Assembly (NCBI GenBank): GCA_003131625.1
Contig: PKVY01000111.1
Coordinates: forward strand, 8,433 to 52,114
DNA: 43,682 bases
Source: Acidobacterium sp.
GTDB lineage: Bacteria; Acidobacteriota; Terriglobia; Terriglobales; Acidobacteriaceae
Direction: 5' to 3'
Positions 15,418 through 24,012 of this stretch are shown here, piece by piece. The translations under genes and the position numbers were made by a program. The notes under the pieces are model-generated. The model ran no database searches. It was not told the origin of the DNA and was given only the letters and a program-made list of their open reading frames with translations. Numbering within the stretch: position 1 is the first letter of the stretch; the number at the start of each line of letters is the position of its first letter.

Positions 15418-16803
15418 ATGGGCGAAGCAGTGAGAACAAAAACTGGCCGCTGGTCGAATCCCTCCGTACGGCTGCTCGCGGGGCAAGAGGACCCGCTCGA
15501 TGCGATGCTGAGGAGAGCTCGCGAAACCGTATTAAGAGCGATGGATAAGGGCTGGTCCGGGCCTCCGTTCGACCCTATCGCGTTGAGCGGAATCCTTGGC
15601 ATACCCGTCTTTCCGCGAGCAGACATTCGTGACGCTCGAACTGTGCCACAAGGCGACACCGGCGTTTGTATTGAATACAATCCAACTCGCCCCCGCGGGC
15701 GCCTTCGGTATTCGGTCGCGCACGAGATTGCACACACGTTATTTCCGGACTGTACCGAGCAGATCCGGAATAGGTCGGCACATCACGAGATGAAAGGCGA
15801 TGAATGGCAGCTCGAAATGCTGTGCAACATCGGAGCCGCCGAGTTTCTGATGCCTATCGGCAGTCTTCAGAGACACTTGATCGGTGAGCCGACGATCAAT
15901 CGCGTATTGGCGATGCGAAGCCAGTTCGACGTATCAACTGAAGCCGTTTTGATTCGCTTAGCGCAGATGTCCGAACGACCTTGTGGGGCATTTGTCGCCT
16001 CGAGAGTAGAGCGAGGCACTCGCGCGGGCCGATACCGGTTCGATTATGTGATTTCATCGCGAACGTGGGCTGCCGAAGCACTCGGCGGGGAATTGCTACC
16101 TGATCAATCGGTTGTTCAGGAATGTACTGCAATTGGTTACACCGCCAAAGGTGAAGCTCTATTTTCGGGGTTCAAGGAGCGGGTGCATATTGAATGTGTC
16201 GGAATCCCCCCATATCCTGGTAGCCTCTATCCCAGAGTTGCGGGCCTGATGTCTAGCGCGACGGCTTCCGATGATAGCCTTTCAATAACCTACTTAAAGG
16301 GCAGTGCTCTTGAGCCTCGTGGCGACGCAGCAAAGATCATTGCCCATATCGTGAGCGATGCGACTCCAAACTGGGGCGGTAGAAGCTTTGCGGTCGCCGT
16401 TAAGCAGAAATGGCCCGATGCGCAGCGGGAGTTTCGGACATGGGCGGAGTCGAACAGACGCCATCTGGCTTTGGGCCAAGTTCATCTTGTTCGAGTCTCC
16501 GACGAGGTTACTGTGGCTAACATGGTTTGCCAAAAAGGCTATGGCCCTTCGGCGCAACCGCGCATTCGATATGCCGCGCTGGAAGAGTGCCTCAAGAAGT
16601 TAGCTGAAGCCGCAAAGCAGGTCAAGGCGTCTGTTCATATGCCAAGAATTGGGACAGGGCAAGCCGGCGGTGCTTGGTTCATTGTTGAGGAATTGGTCAG
16701 GTCAGCATTGCCGAATGCCGGCGTCTCAGCCTTCGTCTACGACCTGCCGGAAGGTTCGCCGAATCAACAAAAGCAAATGGAGTTGATTCCTTCTTTGGCG
16801 TGA
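15418..16803 (+). CDS. ImmA/IrrE metallopeptidase fused to a macro domain
   Basis: 461 residues. The N-terminal half is an ImmA/IrrE-type zinc peptidase: HEIAH at 102-106 in YSVAHEIAHTLFPDC, and the downstream third-ligand helix (DEWQLEMLCNIGAAEFLMP). Such peptidases usually cleave a repressor or partner protein after DNA damage or another signal. The last 170 residues (about 288-455) read as a macro domain: ITYLKGSALEPRGDAAKIIAHIVSD, a GG-containing loop (NWGGRSFA), and the phosphate-binding loop MPRIGTGQAGGAWF followed by IVEELV. Macro domains bind or hydrolyse ADP-ribose attached to proteins or nucleic acids. First gene of a three-gene plus-strand operon, 19 bp from the next. No strong Shine-Dalgarno is visible before the ATG. 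The domain calls are motif-based and fairly secure; the joint function is an inference (see findings). Confidence 0.82.
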   Translation: MGEAVRTKTGRWSNPSVRLLAGQEDPLDAMLRRARETVLRAMDKGWSGPPFDPIALSGILGIPVFPRADIRDARTVPQGDTGVCIEYNPTRPRGRLRYSVAHEIAHTLFPDCTEQIRNRSAHHEMKGDEWQLEMLCNIGAAEFLMPIGSLQRHLIGEPTINRVLAMRSQFDVSTEAVLIRLAQMSERPCGAFVASRVERGTRAGRYRFDYVISSRTWAAEALGGELLPDQSVVQECTAIGYTAKGEALFSGFKERVHIECVGIPPYPGSLYPRVAGLMSSATASDDSLSITYLKGSALEPRGDAAKIIAHIVSDATPNWGGRSFAVAVKQKWPDAQREFRTWAESNRRHLALGQVHLVRVSDEVTVANMVCQKGYGPSAQPRIRYAALEECLKKLAEAAKQVKASVHMPRIGTGQAGGAWFIVEELVRSALPNAGVSAFVYDLPEGSPNQQKQMELIPSLA

Positions 16804-16822
16804 ACGGAGGCAGAGGCGCAAG

Positions 16823-18427
16823 ATGCCGAGCCAGGTAGTTTTGCTGTCAGGACCGGTTGCATCTGGAAAAACCACATTGGCTGAAGCGTTAGAAGTCAAA
16901 TATGGTTTCCATCGGTTTAAGACAAGACAGTTGATCCAGTCCATTCGAGAGGTGAAGAGTGAGCGGCGTGCGCTTCAGCGCGCCGGAGAAGCCCTGGATA
17001 GGCGGACGAGCGGGCAATGGGTTGCGGATGCGCTTGCCAAGGAAGTTCAGAATCTCCCGGATGAAAGTCGTGTCGTGGTCGATTCTGTTCGGATCAAACC
17101 TCAGATTGATGCAGTCCGCCGCGCATTTGGCGCCCGCGTAACTCACATTCACCTTACCGCCCCTGAAGAAGAACTTCGCCGGCGATACGAAGGTCGAGAG
17201 CGATCTATCGAAGAACTGAGCAGCTATGCGGAGGTACGCGCGGACAAAACGGAACGCCTCGTAGGTCGCTTGGCTGCGGCAGCGGATATCGTCGTCGATA
17301 CCGATCGAAGCACTAATGACGGTGTACTAGTCCGCGTCGCCAGCCACCTTGGATTCTACGGACGATCCGTGGATCGGTTAGTTGATGTGCTCGTCGGTGG
17401 ACAATATGGAAGCGAAGGTAAGGGACACATTGCATCCTACCTCGCGCCTGAATATGACTATCTGGTCCGCGCAGGAGGACCGAACGCTGGTCACACGGTT
17501 TATGAAGAGCCTGAGCCGTACCCGCATCACCAGCTTCCCTCCGGGACTCGCTTTTCAGAAGCCAAACTCATCATTGCACCCGGCGCTGTCTTGGCAGTCG
17601 ATAAACTCCTGAAGGAGATCGCCGAATGTGAGGTGGGCACAGACCGCCTCGTCATCGACCCGAGAGCGATGATTATTGATCCTGAAGATCTCGAGTTCGA
17701 GAAAAGAGAGCTTGAGAGCAGGATCGGAAGCACCGCACAGGGAGTCGGATCGGCAACGAGTCGGAAGATTCTTCGCTCAGCGGCGACTCCGGCCGTGAGG
17801 TTGGCAAAGGATGTTGCAGAACTGAAGCCGTTTGTGGGAGAAACGCTTGACGTCCTCGAGAGAGCGTTTGGAGAGAGCAAGCGAATCTTTGTTGAAGGAA
17901 CGCAGGGTACTGGCTTGAGTTTGCACCACGGTTACTATCCGTATGTCACTTCGCGCGAGACTTCTGTGAGCGGATGCTTGGCGGAGGCAGGTGTCGCACC
18001 GACTCGGGTCCGCCGAACCATAATCGCAGTACGCAGCTATCCAATTCGTGTTGAAAGTCCAAAGGGCAGTACCTCCGGGCCTCTGGAACGCGAGGTGACT
18101 TGGGCGACAATTTCAGATCGTTCGAAAATCCCATTGCAGGAACTTGAGCGAACCGAGAAAACGACAACGACCAAGAAAAAACGCCGTGTGGGCGAGTTCG
18201 ACTGGCTTCTCCTTCGAAAATCTGTCTCTCTGAATGGTCCTACGGATATTGCGCTCACTTTTGTGGACTACCTTGACATCGAAAACCGGAAGGCACGGCG
18301 GTTCGATCAGCTCACAGGGGACACTCTCCAATTTATTGAGGAGATCGAGCGGGTAGCCAGTGCTCCGGTCTCCCTTATCACAACGAGATTCGATTACCGA
18401 AGCATTATTGATCGGCGGGCATGGTAA
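16823..18427 (+). CDS. P-loop kinase-like domain fused to a PurZ/PurA-like adenylosuccinate synthetase
   Basis: 534 residues. Residues 1-180 are a nucleotide kinase-like P-loop domain (Walker A GPVASGKTT, 10-18; a D-S-V-R strand near 87-90). Residues 185-534 are an adenylosuccinate synthetase: GGQYGSEGKGH (192-202), GGPNAGHTV (218-226), IGSTAQGVGSA (301-311), FVEGTQGTGLSLHHGYYPYVTS (split over 356-377), the loop TTTTKKKRRVGEFD (447-460) that corresponds to the aspartate-binding TTGRRRR region, and LTFVDYLD where PurA has LTKLDVLD. The catalytic Asp of PurA (GDEGKG) is Ser197 here, while the catalytic His (His224) is kept; the K of the guanine-recognition LTKLD is F. It is shorter than bacterial PurA and resembles the archaeal/phage PurZ-type branch (SRETSVSGCLAEAG). 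Phage PurZ joins Asp to dGMP on the way to 2-aminoadenine. The substrate here is unknown. Middle gene of the trio. Confidence 0.82.
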   Translation: MPSQVVLLSGPVASGKTTLAEALEVKYGFHRFKTRQLIQSIREVKSERRALQRAGEALDRRTSGQWVADALAKEVQNLPDESRVVVDSVRIKPQIDAVRRAFGARVTHIHLTAPEEELRRRYEGRERSIEELSSYAEVRADKTERLVGRLAAAADIVVDTDRSTNDGVLVRVASHLGFYGRSVDRLVDVLVGGQYGSEGKGHIASYLAPEYDYLVRAGGPNAGHTVYEEPEPYPHHQLPSGTRFSEAKLIIAPGAVLAVDKLLKEIAECEVGTDRLVIDPRAMIIDPEDLEFEKRELESRIGSTAQGVGSATSRKILRSAATPAVRLAKDVAELKPFVGETLDVLERAFGESKRIFVEGTQGTGLSLHHGYYPYVTSRETSVSGCLAEAGVAPTRVRRTIIAVRSYPIRVESPKGSTSGPLEREVTWATISDRSKIPLQELERTEKTTTTKKKRRVGEFDWLLLRKSVSLNGPTDIALTFVDYLDIENRKARRFDQLTGDTLQFIEEIERVASAPVSLITTRFDYRSIIDRRAW

Positions 18428-18436
18428 GGACGGCTG

Positions 18437-19102
18437 ATGGCTATTTCGCGAGAACAATTCCTGGCTCTCTATCCTCGGCTTTACCACATGGCACAGGCGG
18501 GAAGCTGGCCCTCGATAAAAAGACGAGGCCTTCTTAGTACTTCCGCGCTATTGGACTTGTTCGAAGTGAACGGAACCGCCCGGAAGGCAATTGAGAGTCA
18601 ACATCGCCCTAATTGTGTGGAGATCACTCACGCTACACACGGGCGGGTTACTATCAGGGACCAGAAGCCTATGAGCGAAAAGGCTCTGCTTAAATGTCTA
18701 GTCGGGACCACGCCGCGCCAGTGGTACGAACTATTGAATAGACGAGTATTCTTCTGGGTGACAGAGAATCGTGTGCTGACGCTTTTGAGTGCGAGAGCCT
18801 ATAAGAACCATGAACACGACGTTTTGACAATTGATGCGCGCGCAATGCTGGAACGCTATGCAGCACGCCTGACTCTTTCCCCAATCAATTCGGGAAGCAC
18901 TGTATACAATCCCCAGCCGCGTGGGCTGGACCTTTTCAAGCCGCTTACCGCATTCCCTTTTGAAGAGCGCCAGAAATACGGAGAGCGTGCGGTTGCTGAG
19001 CTTTCGGTGGAGCACTCTGTTCCCGACCTCAAAAGCTTTGTGATCCAGGTGGAACGCCGCAGGGGGGCGGAGATTCGGCGAGTCTTGTATCGAGCGCGAT
19101 AA
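18437..19102 (+). CDS. DUF7002-like protein, possible ADP-ribosyltransferase fold
   Basis: 221 residues, 9 bp after the PurZ-like gene, with AAGGAC before the ATG. The N-terminus LYHMAQAGSWPSIKRRGLLSTSALLD, the motif IRDQKPMSEKAL, RVFFWVTENRVLTLLSARAY, and the PRGLDLFKPL..FPFEE region fit proteins I know as DUF7002. The opening (Y-H-M, then I..hGLLS) and the R-V-F-F-W strand resemble the DarT/Tpt1-type ADP-ribosyltransferase pattern, so an ART-like fold is plausible, but I cannot confirm a catalytic Glu. If it is an ART, its partner macro domain is two genes upstream. It is the last gene of the operon and ends 33 bp before the convergent E1 gene. Family call moderate, function inferred. Confidence 0.68.
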   Translation: MAISREQFLALYPRLYHMAQAGSWPSIKRRGLLSTSALLDLFEVNGTARKAIESQHRPNCVEITHATHGRVTIRDQKPMSEKALLKCLVGTTPRQWYELLNRRVFFWVTENRVLTLLSARAYKNHEHDVLTIDARAMLERYAARLTLSPINSGSTVYNPQPRGLDLFKPLTAFPFEERQKYGERAVAELSVEHSVPDLKSFVIQVERRRGAEIRRVLYRAR

Positions 19103-19134: not shown

Positions 19135-20568
19135 TTAAGCAGTCGCCAACGTGCTCGGGACCGTGACTCTTTCGGAACGTCCCCCGAGGGTTGCTCTGAC
19201 GCTTGTCAGTTCGCGAAGGTCACCGGTAATTCCAACGTGATGAGCGTACCCCGAGGCAATACGGATCGCCTGGGTGATAGCAAGAGCGCCCGCGACCGCA
19301 CTGACGAATGGTACAGCTACACTGCTCTCTGCAAGCATGGCGGCGCCGCACCCTCCATCGCCGCGGCTGCGAGCAAGTTCCTGATAGGCGGGCATCTGTT
19401 TCAGCCGCTCCGCAACGTACACGGTTTGGTCCTCAACCCCGTCAAAGTGGGTTGCTGGGCTCCTCTCCGAGTCGAAGACGTTAAGACGCAACTTGCAGTA
19501 ATCGTCTACCGTAGCTCCCAGTCCCGCATCAATGATGTATTCAAAACCTCGCCTACCGAGCAGTCGACGAACGGGCATACGGTCAAGCCCGGCCAGCGCA
19601 ACGCCAGGTTCGATATCTGATCTCTGGAGATTTTCGTCCAACCGCCGGTCGATTCGCCGGACCTTAAAACCGCGTCCGGTGGCCCATTCTTCAGCCACGC
19701 GCGTCTTCAAGATGTTGTACCTCCCGCGCTGTACCAGCACTGAGGTTCCCCAGTTCTCCTTTCCTATCTCTTGATCATCTTGAAGAAAGAGAAGAACGTC
19801 TTCAGGCGCGGGATAAGGCAACATAGCAAGGGACCAGAGGTAGGACTGACCTAGATTGCCCAGCCCGATGAGCCACAGCTTCGTTGGCAAGTAAACCTGA
19901 CGGAACGCTGGGCCGGTCTGGTGGGCATAATGCACACTCGTCTCTGGATTCCACAGCGATAAAGTTTGAACTTTCCGTCCAGCGCGGCGGTCACCCTGTT
20001 CCGCGAGAAACGCTTGTCCGACTGCCAGCGCCCCCGCAGCGACGCCGGCTAAAGCGCAATCACTTCGTCCGATCGCGGTCTGATTGCTAACAGGTGCAAT
20101 AGTCGCGGTCCAGCCATTCCAGGATGCTTGTACTGACCATTCGTCAAAAGATTTCAGTCCAGAGCCAATACATATTGTTCGACAGGAAAAGCGTTCTCTT
20201 GCCAATTGAGCGCCAAAGAGGACCGCCGCCTCAGAAAGTGTTGTAGCAGGAATGGGCAGCGGCAGCAACAGAGCTTCATCGCAGTGGCCGTGGAAGGCCA
20301 CCTCGCCAAAGCATCGGGCGCCGGTGAGCGTTGCTGTGAGAAATGCCGCCTGACCTGCAGGAGTGCGAGCCGCCTCCACCCCAATAAACACGCACAGCCT
20401 GGAATTGTTGAGCTTTTCTTCCGCCTCTTCGAAAGTATGTTGTCCGGAATTCACAAGAGCAGCCCGGATTCGCGATGTCTCTGAATCTGTCTCAATTTGA
20501 GCATTATTCACTTTGGCCACCACCCAATATGAAATATTCGACTCCCTCGCGGACTGAGGTTCTTCCAT
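19135..20568 (-). CDS. E1-like (ThiF-fold) ubiquitin-activating protein of a Bil-like operon
   Basis: 477 residues. Residues 1-225 form an extra N-terminal domain not recognised beyond ThiF-related E1 proteins. Residues 228-460 are the ThiF/E1 adenylation domain: a Rossmann GxGxxG (LWLIGLGNLGQ, 235-240), a D-D-Q loop (FLQDDQEIGKENWG), the strand IIDAGLGA, and GGCGAAMLAESS with Cys407 as the likely thioester cysteine. E1 proteins adenylate the C-terminus of a Ubl. It is the last gene of the Ubl-E2-JAB-E1 minus-strand operon. The ATG at 20568 overlaps the JAB gene by 61 nt; a GTG at 20511 would overlap the JAB stop by 4 nt (GTGA) and removes 19 residues, a plausible alternative. Confidence 0.82.
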   Translation of the reverse strand: MEEPQSARESNISYWVVAKVNNAQIETDSETSRIRAALVNSGQHTFEEAEEKLNNSRLCVFIGVEAARTPAGQAAFLTATLTGARCFGEVAFHGHCDEALLLPLPIPATTLSEAAVLFGAQLARERFSCRTICIGSGLKSFDEWSVQASWNGWTATIAPVSNQTAIGRSDCALAGVAAGALAVGQAFLAEQGDRRAGRKVQTLSLWNPETSVHYAHQTGPAFRQVYLPTKLWLIGLGNLGQSYLWSLAMLPYPAPEDVLLFLQDDQEIGKENWGTSVLVQRGRYNILKTRVAEEWATGRGFKVRRIDRRLDENLQRSDIEPGVALAGLDRMPVRRLLGRRGFEYIIDAGLGATVDDYCKLRLNVFDSERSPATHFDGVEDQTVYVAERLKQMPAYQELARSRGDGGCGAAMLAESSVAVPFVSAVAGALAITQAIRIASGYAHHVGITGDLRELTSVRATLGGRSERVTVPSTLATA

Positions 20569-21029
20569 TTTCGAGCACCCAGGTATTCATAGATCCCAAT
20601 TCTGCCGGGCATGCGCGCGCGAGCCGCAAAATCCGGAAGAATGAGAGCAATATGGCCGGGTTCTGCAATCATCGGGCTGTGGCGATCACTACTGCTCTGA
20701 TCGAATCTTCCCGGATGAACATGCACATCAGCAACGACTTCCATTTGCAGCTCGCGGCACTTTTCCCAAACCAATCCGAACTTTCTGCCATCAAACTCAA
20801 CTATGCCGTGTACGAAGCAGTTTGGGTCAACATCGTCGTAATAGAGAAACTGTTGTATTTTGCGCACCCCGCCCTTAGTGAAGCCGAGAAGAAAGGCGCC
20901 ACTCTCGTGCACTCCGTGGGTCCGTAGGCGAAGTTCGTCGACGCCGTCATTCCAAAGTTGTGGGCTGCAGACCAGCTCAGGCGCTTGGCCGATCAAAGCG
21001 TGAAGCAGTGTTCGAAGTAAGGAGACCAT
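20508..21029 (-). CDS. JAB/MPN (JAMM) metallopeptidase, deubiquitinase-like
   Basis: 173 residues from the ATG at 21029, which has GGAGG at good spacing; the frame extends to 21113 but that part lies inside the E2 gene. The JAMM signature is complete: Glu42 in HESGAF, His103 and His105 in DVHVHPG, and Ser112 and Asp115 in QSSSDRH. JAMM proteins hydrolyse isopeptide or peptide bonds at a Ubl C-terminus; in bacterial Ubl operons they either mature the Ubl precursor or remove it from targets. It overlaps the E2-like gene by 53 nt and the E1 gene by 4-61 nt, so translation is probably coupled. Confidence 0.85.
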   Translation of the reverse strand: MVSLLRTLLHALIGQAPELVCSPQLWNDGVDELRLRTHGVHESGAFLLGFTKGGVRKIQQFLYYDDVDPNCFVHGIVEFDGRKFGLVWEKCRELQMEVVADVHVHPGRFDQSSSDRHSPMIAEPGHIALILPDFAARARMPGRIGIYEYLGARKWKNLSPRGSRIFHIGWWPK

Positions 21030-21456
21030 GCAAGTCCTCCAAGGCAAAAGTGAGATCGCGTTTGGGGTTCCACGCAAGAGTAGGATAAGCAGTCGTCCAA
21101 TTGCCATGAGCACCAGCCAATCGGTCCCATGGACGATATACGGTGCCTTTGTCCCATGCCTTAAACGCTCCAGTTACGCGAGCAGAGCCCTTTGGTCGCT
21201 TGTTATTTTCGAGCATTGCATTCGCTGCTGGATTCCATATCCGGGCCTCAGGTGGAACACCTGGGAATCCGGTCAGCTCAAAGCGGAAGCAGTATTCGTT
21301 TGAACTGGCGTCAGGTTCCGTCGCAGTCACGGCAACGATGAGAACCGGAAACGTATATGACACCTGGCGCCATTGGCCCCGCCTTACCCCTGCCTGGAAC
21401 CGGGCGGAATCCAGGTCCGCCCTGATCGCTTGTTCGGCGGGGCTGACGCCGGTCAC
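20977..21456 (-). CDS. E2-like (UBC-fold) protein lacking a cysteine in the expected position
   Basis: 159 residues. The pattern Y.F.VLIVAVTA....EYCFRFELTGFPGVPPEARIWNP...RP.G...V...W..GTVYRPWDRLAGAHGNW...LAWNP..DLTFALEDLHGLL fits E2-like proteins of bacterial Ubl operons: the strand pair before FP.VPP, the W-rich loop and a terminal helix pair. The only cysteine in the protein is Cys56, in the strand before FPGVPP; nothing downstream can act as the usual E2 catalytic Cys. Its ATG overlaps the Ubl stop by 4 nt. It may be a scaffold or use another nucleophile. Family call is from context and fold pattern. Confidence 0.68.
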   Translation of the reverse strand: MTGVSPAEQAIRADLDSARFQAGVRRGQWRQVSYTFPVLIVAVTATEPDASSNEYCFRFELTGFPGVPPEARIWNPAANAMLENNKRPKGSARVTGAFKAWDKGTVYRPWDRLAGAHGNWTTAYPTLAWNPKRDLTFALEDLHGLLTSNTASRFDRPSA

Positions 21457-21974
21457 CGCGATGCTCCATTAGGCACAATGCCGCGGATGAGGTCGAAAGC
21501 CAGTTCGTGATGCGGATGACGCACATAGCGGCCAATGTGGGCATTCTTGGGAAGCGCAGTCGTCTGGCCGTGGAGTGCCAGTTCCATTTCGGGCGCGATC
21601 GTCGGGTCGATTTTGAATCCTTTGGAGCCAATCGCCCAATCGAGCACACGCTGGACGCGGGCGGACGGGGCAAAGCGCTCCTGTATCCGACGGCCCTGAT
21701 AGAAAACCCCCACCTCAATCTTGCGCACACGGTGCACGTGATGCACCCTGTCCATCAGGTTTCCTTCGATAATCAGCGCGAGATCGACCGGATCTTCGCA
21801 GTCTTCGACAAAGAGGATTGCTTCCTCCGCCGGAAAACCACTTCTCGTTGCGACAGCTACGACAATCTCCTTAGCGAGGCTTCCCTCTGGGAGCCGGACG
21901 ATCTCAACTTCGGAGAGACCCTCCCCCTCGACCATTACTTCAACGCCAACTTGCACGTTCTCAGTGGGTTGCAT
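21453..21974 (-). CDS. Tandem ubiquitin-like protein (BilA-like)
   Basis: 173 residues from the ATG at 21974 with AGGAG six bases upstream; a longer open frame to 22172 crosses the shared promoter region and is rejected. Two beta-grasp-like units can be seen: residues 5-85 (VQVGVEVMVEGEGLSEVEIVRLP..SLAKEIVVAVAT) and 88-165 (RKIEVGVFYQGRRIQERFAPSARVQRVLDWAIG...LALHGQTTALPKNAHIG). The C-terminus ends VPNGASR, without a diglycine; removal of ASR would expose one Gly, which the JAB peptidase could do. First gene of the Ubl-E2-JAB-E1 operon. The Ubl-fold call rests on the strand/helix pattern and on the operon. Confidence 0.75.
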   Translation of the reverse strand: MQPTENVQVGVEVMVEGEGLSEVEIVRLPEGSLAKEIVVAVATRSGFPAEEAILFVEDCEDPVDLALIIEGNLMDRVHHVHRVRKIEVGVFYQGRRIQERFAPSARVQRVLDWAIGSKGFKIDPTIAPEMELALHGQTTALPKNAHIGRYVRHPHHELAFDLIRGIVPNGASR

Positions 21975-22129
21975 GTTTTCTCCTGTTCCGACCTCGGGCC
22001 GGAAACCTTCTTCATAGAGGTATGCTGAAAGGAAGTACCGCGTCGGACAACGAACTGGGGATTTATTTTGTCCGATCCCAGGAGCCCCGCAGCATACATG
22101 ACTGAACGGGTGATATATGGAGAGACCCG
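21975..22129. promoter_or_regulatory. Divergent promoter region with a perfect 8-bp inverted repeat
   Basis: 155 bp between the Ubl operon (minus) and the sigma/ImmA operon (plus). TCGGACAA at 22043-22050 and TTGTCCGA at 22068-22075 are exact reverse complements with a 17-bp spacer. The half-site spacing and central position suggest an operator or paired promoter elements controlling both operons. Confidence 0.6.
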
Positions 22130-22753
22130 GTGGCACCAGACAAACCGCAGTCCAAAACAGAGGTAGTCGCAACGGCTGAAGAGATTGAACAGGCCATTGC
22201 GAAGCTCACGAGGGCTGATTTCGCGAAGCTCAATGAGTTTGCGCGGAATCGCGCCCAGGTGTTGAGCCTTTTCGGAGTTTCTTATGCCGGTGAAGACCTA
22301 TTGCAGGAGGCTGTAATCTCTTTGCTTGAACAGCGGCGCCATTGGAACCCGAAAAAGGTGGATTTCATGGGAGTACTCATGGGGGCAATTCGGAGCATTG
22401 CCTCCAATTTGAAAGAACGAGCCAAGACTACGGGTTTCGAGATTCCGGCAAGCCAGTTCGTAGAACAGGACGTGGACGGTGCAGAATTGCCCACTCCGGT
22501 GGACCTGGTTCAGGAGGCACGCTTAAATCCCGAACAGAGTGCCCTTGTTTTCGGCTTGCTGGACGAATTACAAGAGGTTTTCGCCGAAGATCCTGAGGCA
22601 TTAGTCATCATGGATGGTTGGTCGGATCGCATGTCTGGGACGGAAATCATTGACGCGTTAGGTATCGACAGGAATGCATACGAGACTATCGTCCGGCGGA
22701 TTCGTCGACAGGTTGACGCGCGTTGGCCGAGGGGGAGTCACAATGTCCGGTAA
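22130..22753 (+). CDS. ECF-like sigma factor / sigma-70-fold regulator
   Basis: 207 residues from a GTG at 22130 with GGAGAG upstream. A region-2-like segment is visible at about 40-100 (FGVSYAGEDLLQEAVISLLEQRRHWNP, then FMGVLMGAIRSIASNLKERAK), and a C-terminal HTH at about 160-200 (MSGTEIIDALGIDRNAYETIVRRIRRQVDARWP). This matches ECF-type sigma factors. No N-terminal extension of known class is evident. It opens a three-gene operon (11-nt overlap with the next gene), divergent from the Ubl operon, and is the best candidate to control that operon or its own promoter. Confidence 0.75.
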   Translation: MAPDKPQSKTEVVATAEEIEQAIAKLTRADFAKLNEFARNRAQVLSLFGVSYAGEDLLQEAVISLLEQRRHWNPKKVDFMGVLMGAIRSIASNLKERAKTTGFEIPASQFVEQDVDGAELPTPVDLVQEARLNPEQSALVFGLLDELQEVFAEDPEALVIMDGWSDRMSGTEIIDALGIDRNAYETIVRRIRRQVDARWPRGSHNVR

Positions 22754-23198
22754 GAAACAGTGGACAGTCGAACAGGCGGAACACACACTCGACCAGATTG
22801 CAGAGTCGGTTGAAGCTGCACCTTCCAAGGAGATCGAGGAAGATGTCTTGTCCTCTGGAGGGGATGCAGATGTACTCGCTGCTCAGACAAAAGCTGCACT
22901 TTTGGCTGGCGTCAAGAGATTCCAGCAACGGAGGCTGAGCCGCGCGAGGCAGCGATACAGGGAAAGCTCGCAAAGGATTGAGAGCCGCGCGCGGAGAGTA
23001 GCGTCAAGCGCCGAAGCAAGGAAAACTCAGTTCTTCGCGCTGCTCAAGGCCAACCCAAATATTCAGTCCGCCCTGACAATCCAGTACCGGGAATTGAGCT
23101 CTTTGACCGACGACGACATCGCAAGTGCTCTAGAAGAGGCCGACGCGCTCGGTGCCCTAGAAGAAATCGGAGAGCGCCCCGATGAATCCAAGTCCTGA
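22743..23198 (+). CDS. Small charged helical protein between sigma factor and ImmA peptidase
   Basis: 151 residues from the ATG at 22743, overlapping the sigma gene by 11 nt. An in-frame extension to 22674 lies wholly inside the sigma gene. The middle (about 45-105) is a strongly helical Arg/Gln/Ser-rich stretch (RRLSRARQRYRES, RARRVASSAEARKTQ). It has no Cys and no membrane segment. Its place, overlapped by a sigma gene and an ImmA peptidase gene, suggests an anti-sigma or substrate role for the peptidase; that is inference. Not a family I can name. Confidence 0.7.
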   Translation: MSGKKQWTVEQAEHTLDQIAESVEAAPSKEIEEDVLSSGGDADVLAAQTKAALLAGVKRFQQRRLSRARQRYRESSQRIESRARRVASSAEARKTQFFALLKANPNIQSALTIQYRELSSLTDDDIASALEEADALGALEEIGERPDESKS

Positions 23199-24012
23199 GT
23201 GGTATCGACCACCTGCTCAGATCCTGGCTGATCTAGGGATTCAAGAGCCGGCCGACATAGACATTGAGGCGATAGCGGAAGATTGTGCCGCGACAATCCG
23301 TTATCAACCGCTATCAGGTTGCGCTGCTCGTATCATGGGCTACAAGGACCGAGCGATTATTACGATTGATAAGGATTGCTATCGGCCGCGGCAGCGATTC
23401 TCGGGTGGGCATGAGTTGGGCCATTGGATGAGGGATCGCGGACAGGTCGCATTCCAATGTGCAGATAAGAGTTTCGATCAGGAGTGGTCAGCGGATAATC
23501 CGGAGACGAGGGCCAATCGATTTGCGAGCGACTTGTTGTTGCCCGGCAAGATGTTTCGGAGATACGCCCACCAGAAACCCCCGACATTTGACTCTGTTCA
23601 AGAACTTGCGGAGATATTTTGCACGAGCTTGACAGCGACTGCCATACGCCTCGTTGAGTATGGGGAGTTACCCGCGATGCTCATTTGCAATGGCCCCGAG
23701 AAGCGAGAGTGGTACGTGCCGAATGGCGATCTGCGAAATAAGCTGTGGCCGGAATTACGCCCTGGAACTGGTAGCATCGCATACTCTCTCTTGAATGGGC
23801 ATGGGAAGTCCTTTTCGCCGAGGGATGTCGGCGCTGGCGAATGGGTCAATGATCGTAATGCTCATAACTATTGGGTGCGTGAAGACTCACGGCTGCTCTC
23901 AAATGGGATCGTTTTGACACTCCTCTGGTGGAAGGACGAAACACAACTCATTGATATCGACAACGCGATTGAAGAGCAAGGTTCGTGGCGCAGCGATTTC
24001 CGACGGGAATGA
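23182..24012 (+). CDS. ImmA/IrrE-family metallopeptidase
   Basis: 276 residues, overlapping the previous gene by 17 nt. The zinc site HELGH lies in FSGGHELGHWMRD, and the third-ligand helix is ETRANRFASDLLLP. The N-terminal part has the usual ImmA strand pattern (CAARIMGYKDRAIITIDKD); the C-terminal 120 residues are an extra domain, beta-rich (WYVPNGDL, NYWVREDSRLLSNGIVLTLLWW). The family cleaves transcription regulators to release genes. Here the obvious substrates are the two upstream gene products. Last gene of the sigma operon. Confidence 0.85.
   Translation: MNPSPEWYRPPAQILADLGIQEPADIDIEAIAEDCAATIRYQPLSGCAARIMGYKDRAIITIDKDCYRPRQRFSGGHELGHWMRDRGQVAFQCADKSFDQEWSADNPETRANRFASDLLLPGKMFRRYAHQKPPTFDSVQELAEIFCTSLTATAIRLVEYGELPAMLICNGPEKREWYVPNGDLRNKLWPELRPGTGSIAYSLLNGHGKSFSPRDVGAGEWVNDRNAHNYWVREDSRLLSNGIVLTLLWWKDETQLIDIDNAIEEQGSWRSDFRRE

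Follow-up and report, generated by a model that had tools for sequence, protein, structure and literature searches.

A kinase-PurZ and DarT-like gene pair, often with a peptidase-macrodomain gene, looks like an undescribed conflict or defence system of bacteria and archaea

Three genes in a mobile element

The window studied here is the whole 43,682-nucleotide stretch of contig PKVY01000111.1 (positions 8,433 to 52,114, forward strand; assembly GCA_003131625.1) from Acidobacterium sp., and our subject is a trio of adjacent genes within it, the open reading frames ORF1, ORF2 and ORF3 (Table 1). Judged from profile matches, ORF1 is a peptidase-macrodomain fusion and ORF2 is a kinase domain joined to a PurZ-type synthetase; ORF3 is a DUF7002 protein. 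An earlier sequence-only reading had described three tightly spaced, co-oriented genes in a mobile element, and both statements hold: all three genes lie on the plus strand with intergenic gaps of 19 bp (ORF1-ORF2) and 9 bp (ORF2-ORF3), and the conjugative-element genes around them encode ParB, a TrwC relaxase, a T2SSE/VirB11-like ATPase and an ArdC-like protein. Overall, the trio, which stays linked across many bacterial and archaeal phyla, looks like an as yet undescribed conflict or defence system of cells.

Table 1. Features of the trio (window coordinates) and positions of the related PurZ-DCD cassettes (locus coordinates)
Feature	Position	Strand	Description or basis
ORF1	15418..16803	+	461 aa; IrrE/CapP-like zinc peptidase and ALC1/SCO6735-like macrodomain; proposed guard/eraser
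HExxH zinc motif, ORF1 residues 102-106, third ligand E133	15721..15735	+	conservation in alignment A6
Macro domain core, ORF1 residues 321-453	16378..16776	+	PADLOC DarG, PHROG 335, PDB 5e3b
Gln372 of ORF1, aligned with catalytic Gln85 of SCO6735	16531..16533	+	profile alignment
ORF2	16823..18427	+	534 aa; dNMP-kinase-like domain fused to PurZ-type synthetase
Kinase-like P-loop domain, ORF2 residues ~1-180	16823..17362	+	Walker A SGPVASGKT; PHROG 139
Adenylosuccinate synthetase/PurZ-like domain, ORF2 residues 187-532	17381..18418	+	PF00709, PHROG 1211, tree
Ser197 in GGQYGSEGKG of ORF2, at the place of catalytic Asp13 of PurA	17411..17413	+	
ORF3	18437..19102	+	221 aa; DUF7002, DarT-like ADP-ribosyltransferase fold; proposed effector
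His17 of LYHMA motif, ORF3	18485..18487	+	NAD-site His of ADP-ribosyltransferases by analogy
Glu188 of ORF3, proposed catalytic Glu	18998..19000	+	DarT1 E152/DarT2 E160 analogue by position, late ADP-ribosyltransferase strand
Sister PurZ-DCD cassettes	L207:4788-7446, L212:4085-6617, L213:4059-6750, L206:4188-6306		

ORF2 groups with phage PurZ

The first reading took ORF2 for a synthetase of PurZ type with its own P-loop domain, and Pfam, PHROG, the active-site residue and a tree all bear this out. The N-terminus matched AAA_18 and AAA_33 in Pfam and PHROG 139, a deoxynucleoside monophosphate (dNMP) kinase (5e-8), and the Walker A residues G10, G15 and K16 were kept in 51/51 sequences of the ORF2 alignment (A7). 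The alignments of ORF3 (A5), ORF1 (A6) and ORF2 (A7) hold 73/81, 61/63 and 50/91 of the listed proteins, respectively, each plus the window's own. The C-terminus matched Adenylsucc_synt (PF00709, 2e-58) and PHROG 1211, labelled '2-aminooxy adenylosuccinate synthetase' (9e-74); the best solved relatives were the short adenylosuccinate synthetases 5k7x and 2d7u, ahead of the deposited PurZ 7odx. At the place of Asp13 of PurA, Ser was found in 51/51 sequences of A7 and in 87/88 trio-type rows, the remaining row being a fragment, and Asp in 19/19 PurA rows (18 distinct). Five aligned plasmid rows, found by tblastn, likewise carry Ser. One of the two patterns in the genome search held GSEGKG, and one of the two in the viral search held GSE; since GSEGKG stood in a search pattern, the Ser criterion for PurZ is partly circular. 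According to an excerpt of PMC12884076, phage PurZ has Ser in 147/147 sequences and the PurA group has Asp in 99%.

In a quick tree of 83 rows, with support from the Shimodaira-Hasegawa-like approximate likelihood ratio test (SH-aLRT) only and no bootstrap, the 35 fused-type rows formed one branch (SH-aLRT 100) nested in a Ser-PurZ branch of 64 (SH-aLRT 99), and PurA formed a separate branch (SH-aLRT 100). The kinase-PurZ fusion groups with phage PurZ, apart from PurA. The possibility that ORF2 is an ordinary PurA duplicate was rejected by the Ser residue and by this tree position. The genome of the window has a second, weaker ORF2 match (G000:C41; L and G numbers are our handles for loci and genomes), which is possibly the genome's own PurA.

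ORF3 has a DarT-like fold

ORF3 matched DUF7002 at 238 bits in Pfam, and the suggestion from sequence was that it might be an ADP-ribosyltransferase (ART). A structure comparison with VIA-align, a second look in which folds ranked low by Foldseek could not appear, found a DarT/ART fold over the whole protein, with DarT1 and DarT2 nearest, rather than an unrelated fold. Compared as profiles, ORF3 scored 63% (E 7e-5) against a DarT set made up of 9/13 matches, versus 0.15% and 0.08% against two unrelated families. H17 and E188 were each kept in 74/74 sequences of A5. His17 aligns with the DarT His motif in two profile comparisons, while the profile alignment ends before Glu188, which we infer by position to be the equivalent of the DarT catalytic Glu; the NAD-site His and catalytic Glu of an ART are both present, with equivalence by motif and position only. 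Based on its predicted fold, DUF7002 is likely an ADP-ribosyltransferase family. DUF7002 had no match in PHROGs, and 0 matches in open-licence PMC papers.

ORF1 joins an IrrE/CapP-like peptidase to a macrodomain

The assignment of a macro domain fused to an IrrE-type peptidase was confirmed by M78, by DarG-model matches and by a 62-member profile; this architecture rests on sequence profiles. The IrrE/M78 peptidase scored above its Pfam cutoff and the macro domain below its own. The N-terminus matched CapP in PADLOC (3e-19) and, by profile, the structures 7t5t (CapP, 2.5e-11) and 3dte (IrrE, 5e-13). The zinc residues were nearly invariant in A6 (H102 62/62, E103 61/62, H106 62/62, E133 62/62), giving the HExxH motif and distal Glu of ImmA/IrrE/CapP peptidases. 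The macrodomain matched DarG in PADLOC (1.4e-8) and PHROG 335 (3e-21), and the 62-member profile matched BT1257 (2fg1, 3e-47) and 5e3b (8e-46); 5e3b, labelled 'Macrodomain protein', is presumably SCO6735, which fits the residue numbering. The places of SCO6735 Gln85, the catalytic residue of this ALC1-like macrodomain, and of Gly128 were each kept in 62/62 ORF1 relatives, and at the position of Asn27, 48/62 have Asn while the window's ORF1 has Ser. ORF1 resembles the SCO6735/BT_1257 macrodomains over the domain and at the first two places; unlike them, it also carries a peptidase and is genetically linked to a DUF7002 ART. The curated DarG model NF048014 gave ORF1 24.3 bits against a cutoff of 250, and because of this failure the operon is not filed as DarTG. 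As stated in an excerpt of PMC9411070, SCO6735 erases ADP-ribose from thymidine in DNA, for which Gln85 is required, and it inhibits DarT, also as an inactive mutant.

ORF2 and ORF3 form the constant pair

Using the alignment of ORF2 as query against 84,980 species genomes, we found 314 relatives, of which the best 80 were kept, yielding 79 loci; the frequencies below hold for these best 80 of 314. The loci span 15 phyla; going by record titles, 74 are bacterial and 5 archaeal, and identities to the window are 45-90% (ORF2), 24-57% (ORF3) and 31-80% (ORF1). The nearest ORF2 comes from L025, whose genome carries the label Acidobacteriaceae (90% identity), which makes an acidobacterial host probable for the window, and the whole trio is also present in another genus in the same order (L002). 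By the ORF3 profile, ORF3 lies co-oriented and at most 1.5 kb downstream of ORF2 in 75/79 loci (among them L056 with a weak match of 44 bits, L049 with a split gene and L098 cut by the contig end) and elsewhere in the locus in three (L073, L087, L096), 78/79 in total; L091 ends at a contig end. ORF1 is directly upstream of ORF2 in 61/79 loci, separated from the ART gene by ORF2, and in two of these only the macro part is present (L026, at a contig start, and L027, broken). The median gaps are 14 bp for ORF1-ORF2 (59 loci) and 3 bp for ORF2-ORF3 (67 loci). Among 93 matching plasmid records, eight hold ORF2 over at least 80% of its length, and ORF3 adjoins it in 8/8, three of which (NC_017324, NZ_CP021125, NZ_CP072867) are known from match rows only. 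Homologues of these genes, whose adjacency the first reading had proposed to count, are therefore neighbours across phyla. The recurrence in 15 phyla rejects a random assembly of genes or an artefact of annotation; as many of the genomes are metagenome-assembled, the name of an individual host may be in error. In the phylum of the window, DUF7002 was present in 6/396 genomes and stood beside kinase-PurZ or its PurZ part in 2/6 (the window and G341). Loci L201, L202, L203 and L204 (genomes G258, G406, G276 and G422) encode DUF7002 in genomes where our search detected no kinase-PurZ.

The remaining 18/79 loci have no ORF1 upstream. In L045 an ORF1 accompanies a second kinase-PurZ, and in L074 there is a separate macro gene; the macro profile found no other separate macro gene in these 18 loci, in which NADAR- or ARH-type (ADP-ribosylglycohydrolase) erasers were not searched. 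ORF1 was likewise unmatched at 1e-5 in all eight plasmid records with full-length ORF2. The constant pair is kinase-PurZ and the ART, and ORF2, not ORF1, is the constant partner. This corrects the frame of the sequence-only reading, in which an ART and a macrodomain antitoxin were accompanied by a purine enzyme as an extra, and it weakens ORF1 as an essential antitoxin. A DarTG-like toxin-antitoxin system for addiction or defence would have ORF3 as a constitutive toxin and ORF1 as its antitoxin, with ORF2 only repairing or buffering pools or detoxifying ADP-ribosylated guanine nucleotides. The nearness of the ORF3 fold to DarT1/DarT2, the SCO6735-like macrodomain with its catalytic Gln and the small operon on a conjugative element are what one would expect of such a system, but the loci and plasmids without ORF1, the constancy of ORF2 and the near absence of a replacement macro gene in the 18 loci are not, and we consider it unlikely. 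With roughly one locus in four lacking ORF1 and the ART occasionally on its own, a conditional effector is more likely than a plain toxin-antitoxin system. The trio also departs from DarTG1 and DarTG2 in that its ART has kinase-PurZ as constant partner and its macro protein can be absent; we know of no purine synthetase and no peptidase in DarTG.

Pathway partners in the neighbourhood

Around 84 loci, 1117 neighbour ORFs were clustered, giving 13 clusters present in at least four loci, eight checked by Pfam/PHROGs and five by eye; statements below on recurring clusters have this scope, and counts of MazG, PurB and HD genes cover flanks of up to ~10 kb. A MazG-like pyrophosphohydrolase (PF01503, 2e-19) was found in nine loci (8/10 actinobacterial loci and L096), in 7/9 directly upstream of ORF1 and co-oriented, with gaps of 27-136 bp. 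Five of these nine also encode a PurB-like lyase (PF00206, 6e-39), whose profile matches a gene annotated purB in L024 at 4e-114. Such MazG-like and PurB-like partners are easier to reconcile with a pathway than with a step of repair, a further point against the DarTG-like alternative. The eight rhizobial-type loci have, not MazG/PurB, but an HD protein matching PHROG 318 ('dNMP phosphatase', 6e-63).

Viral sequences hold the fusion as well. Among 80 viral loci it is whole in six, with DUF7002 in L105, L107 and L109 and without it in L104, L106 and L108, and a seventh contig (L110/L149) is cut within the fusion. In L104 a nucleoside deoxyribosyltransferase-MazG gene is near the fusion, and in L106 and L108 a DNA polymerase gene lies just upstream. 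Viral PurZ contigs that also encode a PurB-like lyase are L138, L152, L155, L156, L159, L161, L163 and L174.

A sister bacterial cassette, without DUF7002, combines a separate kinase, a Ser-PurZ and a DCD/dUTPase-like protein in L207, L212 and L213, which are relatives of the window; L206 has PurZ and a DCD-like protein of this kind (DCD-TM) without kinase or DUF7002. The DCD-like protein of these cassettes has hydrophobic segments that could form membrane helices. Next to the trio type, DCD-TM genes are also found in L016, L052, L071 and L097. By the DCD profile, Dut-like genes directly follow PurZ in 13 viral contigs, and a scan of the viral contigs with one DCD-TM protein found no relative. 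Under the tentative immune-metabolite reading set out below, the kinase, PurZ and DCD-TM cassettes would form a sister system with a membrane protein as the sensor of the Z nucleotide. Just upstream of the cassette in L207, L212 and L213 is a gene that is 63-72% alike among them, the L212 copy of which matches RNase_H_2.

With these sequences in hand, one may ask whether the element writes 2-aminoadenine into its own DNA against nucleases, as Z phages do, with ORF3 and ORF1 writing and erasing a further mark. The polymerase beside the fusion in the two viral fragments and the HD nucleotidase of the rhizobial type would suit this, as would the dUTPase/DCD-like proteins of the bacterial PurZ cassettes, which PurZ0 phages also carry according to an excerpt of PMC12884076. 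However, no polymerase was recognised among the recurring clusters, the HD protein is confined to the eight rhizobial-type loci and an ART is a poor tool for self-protection, and we regard DNA self-modification as very improbable. We give equally little credence to a small-molecule pathway, in which the ORF2 product would be a purine nucleotide antimetabolite that ORF3 ADP-ribosylates into a product. A related synthetase does lie in a folE/purB/queE/queC cluster (L024), free guanine nucleotides are modified by some ARTs (ScARP, in an excerpt of PMC11833690), and an ABC-ATPase cluster occurs in 6/84 loci, though at a median distance of 5.8 kb. Against this, the L024 synthetase keeps Asp and falls outside the PurZ branch in our tree, on a long branch, and no tailoring enzyme was recognised among the recurring clusters.

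Proposed mechanism and its standing

Z-nucleotide (2-aminoadenine) synthesis is known from phages, where PurZ makes the succino-adduct and PurB the product. We put about even weight on the reading that the trio is a mobile conflict module, probably anti-phage, that combines a cellular Z-nucleotide pathway with a DarT-like effector, in which the substrates, the link from product to ART and the defensive role are inferred; the enzyme classes, active-site conservation, gene coupling and pathway partners are supported at the level of sequence and structure. ORF2 would carry out the PurZ step, (d)GMP + Asp -> N6-succino-2-amino-(d)AMP, from which PurB of the host (in some loci perhaps a dedicated PurB-like lyase) would release 2-aminoadenine monophosphate for phosphorylation by the fused kinase domain. 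In actinobacteria the dedicated MazG-like enzyme would supply dGMP from dGTP; MazZ of Z phages yields dGMP according to an excerpt of PMC12884076. ORF3 would be the effector, an active ADP-ribosyltransferase acting on nucleic acid or nucleotides, with the 2-aminopurine nucleotide as its trigger or acceptor. DarT1, the solved structure closest to ORF3, joins ADP-ribose to the exocyclic N2 of guanine, and the eraser of this mark is NADAR (excerpt of PMC11543638). Because 2-aminoadenine shares the 2-amino group of guanine that DarT1 targets, a 2-aminopurine-directed ART and a 2-aminopurine synthetase would make sense in one operon. ORF1 would be an accessory guard whose macrodomain binds or reverses the ADP-ribose mark and whose IrrE/CapP-like peptidase makes release or expression depend on DNA damage or infection. 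A more specific form of the proposal, which we advance tentatively and hold to be doubtful, is that Z deoxynucleotides made by kinase-PurZ (in places with its own MazG and PurB) are an immune metabolite of bacteria and archaea, and that the Z nucleotide, or phage-replication DNA incorporating Z, triggers or accepts a DarT-like ART that recognises the purine 2-amino group.

Several results weigh against the proposal. The PurZ model NF038379 gives ORF2 217 bits, below its cutoff of 300, and the archaeal-type synthetase model NF003295 (PRK04293) gives 296 bits against a cutoff of 368. Because of these scores the ORF2 substrate could differ (GMP, IMP or another purine), and because the curated NF038379 cutoff was missed we write PurZ-type and not PurZ. 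A profile search against PDB sequences placed DarT1 no better than E 0.13, close to the value of a TPR protein (0.15). That the ART can stand without the synthetase is shown by DUF7002 genes lacking ORF2 in 4/6 DUF7002-bearing genomes of the window's phylum and lacking full-length ORF2 in 2/10 plasmid DUF7002 records. The macrodomain resembles a thymidine-ADP-ribose eraser, whereas guanine-N2-linked ADP-ribose is erased by NADAR, and the clues indicate different bases. Finally, the excess of defence families near the trio is weak: in PADLOC at 1e-20, a set of 100 neighbour ORFs, taken from 155 picked at no more than two per locus, matched 103 families, versus 46 families for a set of 100 control ORFs, taken from 138 on 15 contig stretches of the window's relatives. 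Counted in proteins, the excess is small and unmatched, because one protein can match many families and the controls come from relatives of the window only. Among the families listed (25 per set), neighbours include GajA, GajB, ZacA, ZacC, JetA, PifA and type I specificity subunits, and controls include type I restriction enzyme and specificity subunits, RtcR/CARF and mad5.

Relation to known systems

The trio shares with the phage Z pathway (PurZ, MazZ, DatZ/DutZ) the Ser-type PurZ branch, MazG-like and PurB-like partners and the presence of the fusion in viral fragments, but its synthetase is kinase-fused, found in genomes of 15 phyla and coupled to an ART, and no DNA polymerase is recognised among its recurring neighbours. 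Like CmdTAC, in which partners hold an ART effector (excerpt of PMC11618068), it is a three-gene operon; unlike CmdTAC it lacks a SecB-like chaperone and has a purine synthetase and a peptidase-macro protein. ORF1 is akin to the peptidases of CapP/CapH and IrrE/DdrO in its N-terminus and intact zinc motif, but it bears a macrodomain, and no repressor was recognised among the recurring clusters, not all of which are identified. Among the matches listed from titles and abstract starts of open-licence PMC papers, a set without preprints and subscription papers, none describes the trio operon or a cellular Z-nucleotide defence. Four archaeal sequences with Ser or Gly are placed in the PurZ group in an excerpt of PMC12884076.

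If the proposal is true, a 2-aminopurine nucleotide would be a new currency of nucleotide-based immunity, and a Z-type synthetase found in 15 phyla and coupled to a DarT-like enzyme would bring a modified nucleobase into the immunity of cells. To our knowledge, the nucleotide signals of bacterial immunity have so far been cyclic oligonucleotides, NAD derivatives, inosine and ddh-nucleotides. Why cells would make a Z nucleotide becomes directly testable, with many operons testable in E. coli, and the uncharacterised family DUF7002 gains a likely, predicted class.

Other observations

The rhizobial type comprises L016-L020, L084, L093 and L099, with kinase-PurZ, DUF7002 and the HD dNMP-phosphatase-like protein; a further protein of ~455 aa in this type has no Pfam or PHROG match. 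A family of ~245 aa with the motif 'YFGDINDYKKYGLLR', also without a Pfam or PHROG match, lies by the trio or pair in nine Chloroflexota/archaeal loci (L037, L042, L043, L044, L052, L057, L070, L077, L082) and beside the PurZ-DCD cassette of L206 (L206:3360-4184). A free-standing gene matching the kinase part of ORF2 stands beside the fusion in L085, L089, L090, L094, L096, L100, L101, L102, L103 and L107. Near the Mycobacterium gordonae trio, L079:4745-6175 reads by eye like an ADP-ribosylglycohydrolase. An HsdM cluster occurs in 8/84 loci and an HsdR-looking cluster in 7/84, of which only the HsdM representative was identified.

On a Sinorhizobium plasmid (L023:5317-9958), an HD phosphatase-like protein, a Ser-PurZ, a DCD-like protein and a ThiF/E1-like protein are encoded close together. 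On a Rhizobium plasmid (L024:5369-12932), folE, the Asp-type synthetase gene, purB, queE, IMPDH, nitrile hydratase, queC and a phosphoribosyltransferase form a cluster that by its gene content looks like a deazapurine nucleoside pathway.

In the window, a complete BilABCD operon (ubiquitin-like conjugation, anti-phage) lies directly downstream of the trio at 19135-22172 on the minus strand, with PADLOC values of 1e-130 (BilD), 7e-62 (BilC), 2e-50 (BilB) and 5e-40 (BilA). Together with the CapP-like gene beyond it, this neighbour is consistent with an anti-phage role of the trio. Past Bil, at 22130-24012 (+), a gene for a sigma-factor-like protein is accompanied by a short gene that matches CapH weakly (E 0.04) and by one for a peptidase with a strong match to CapP (1e-55); by these matches the last two are perhaps a CapH/CapP-like regulatory pair outside Bil.

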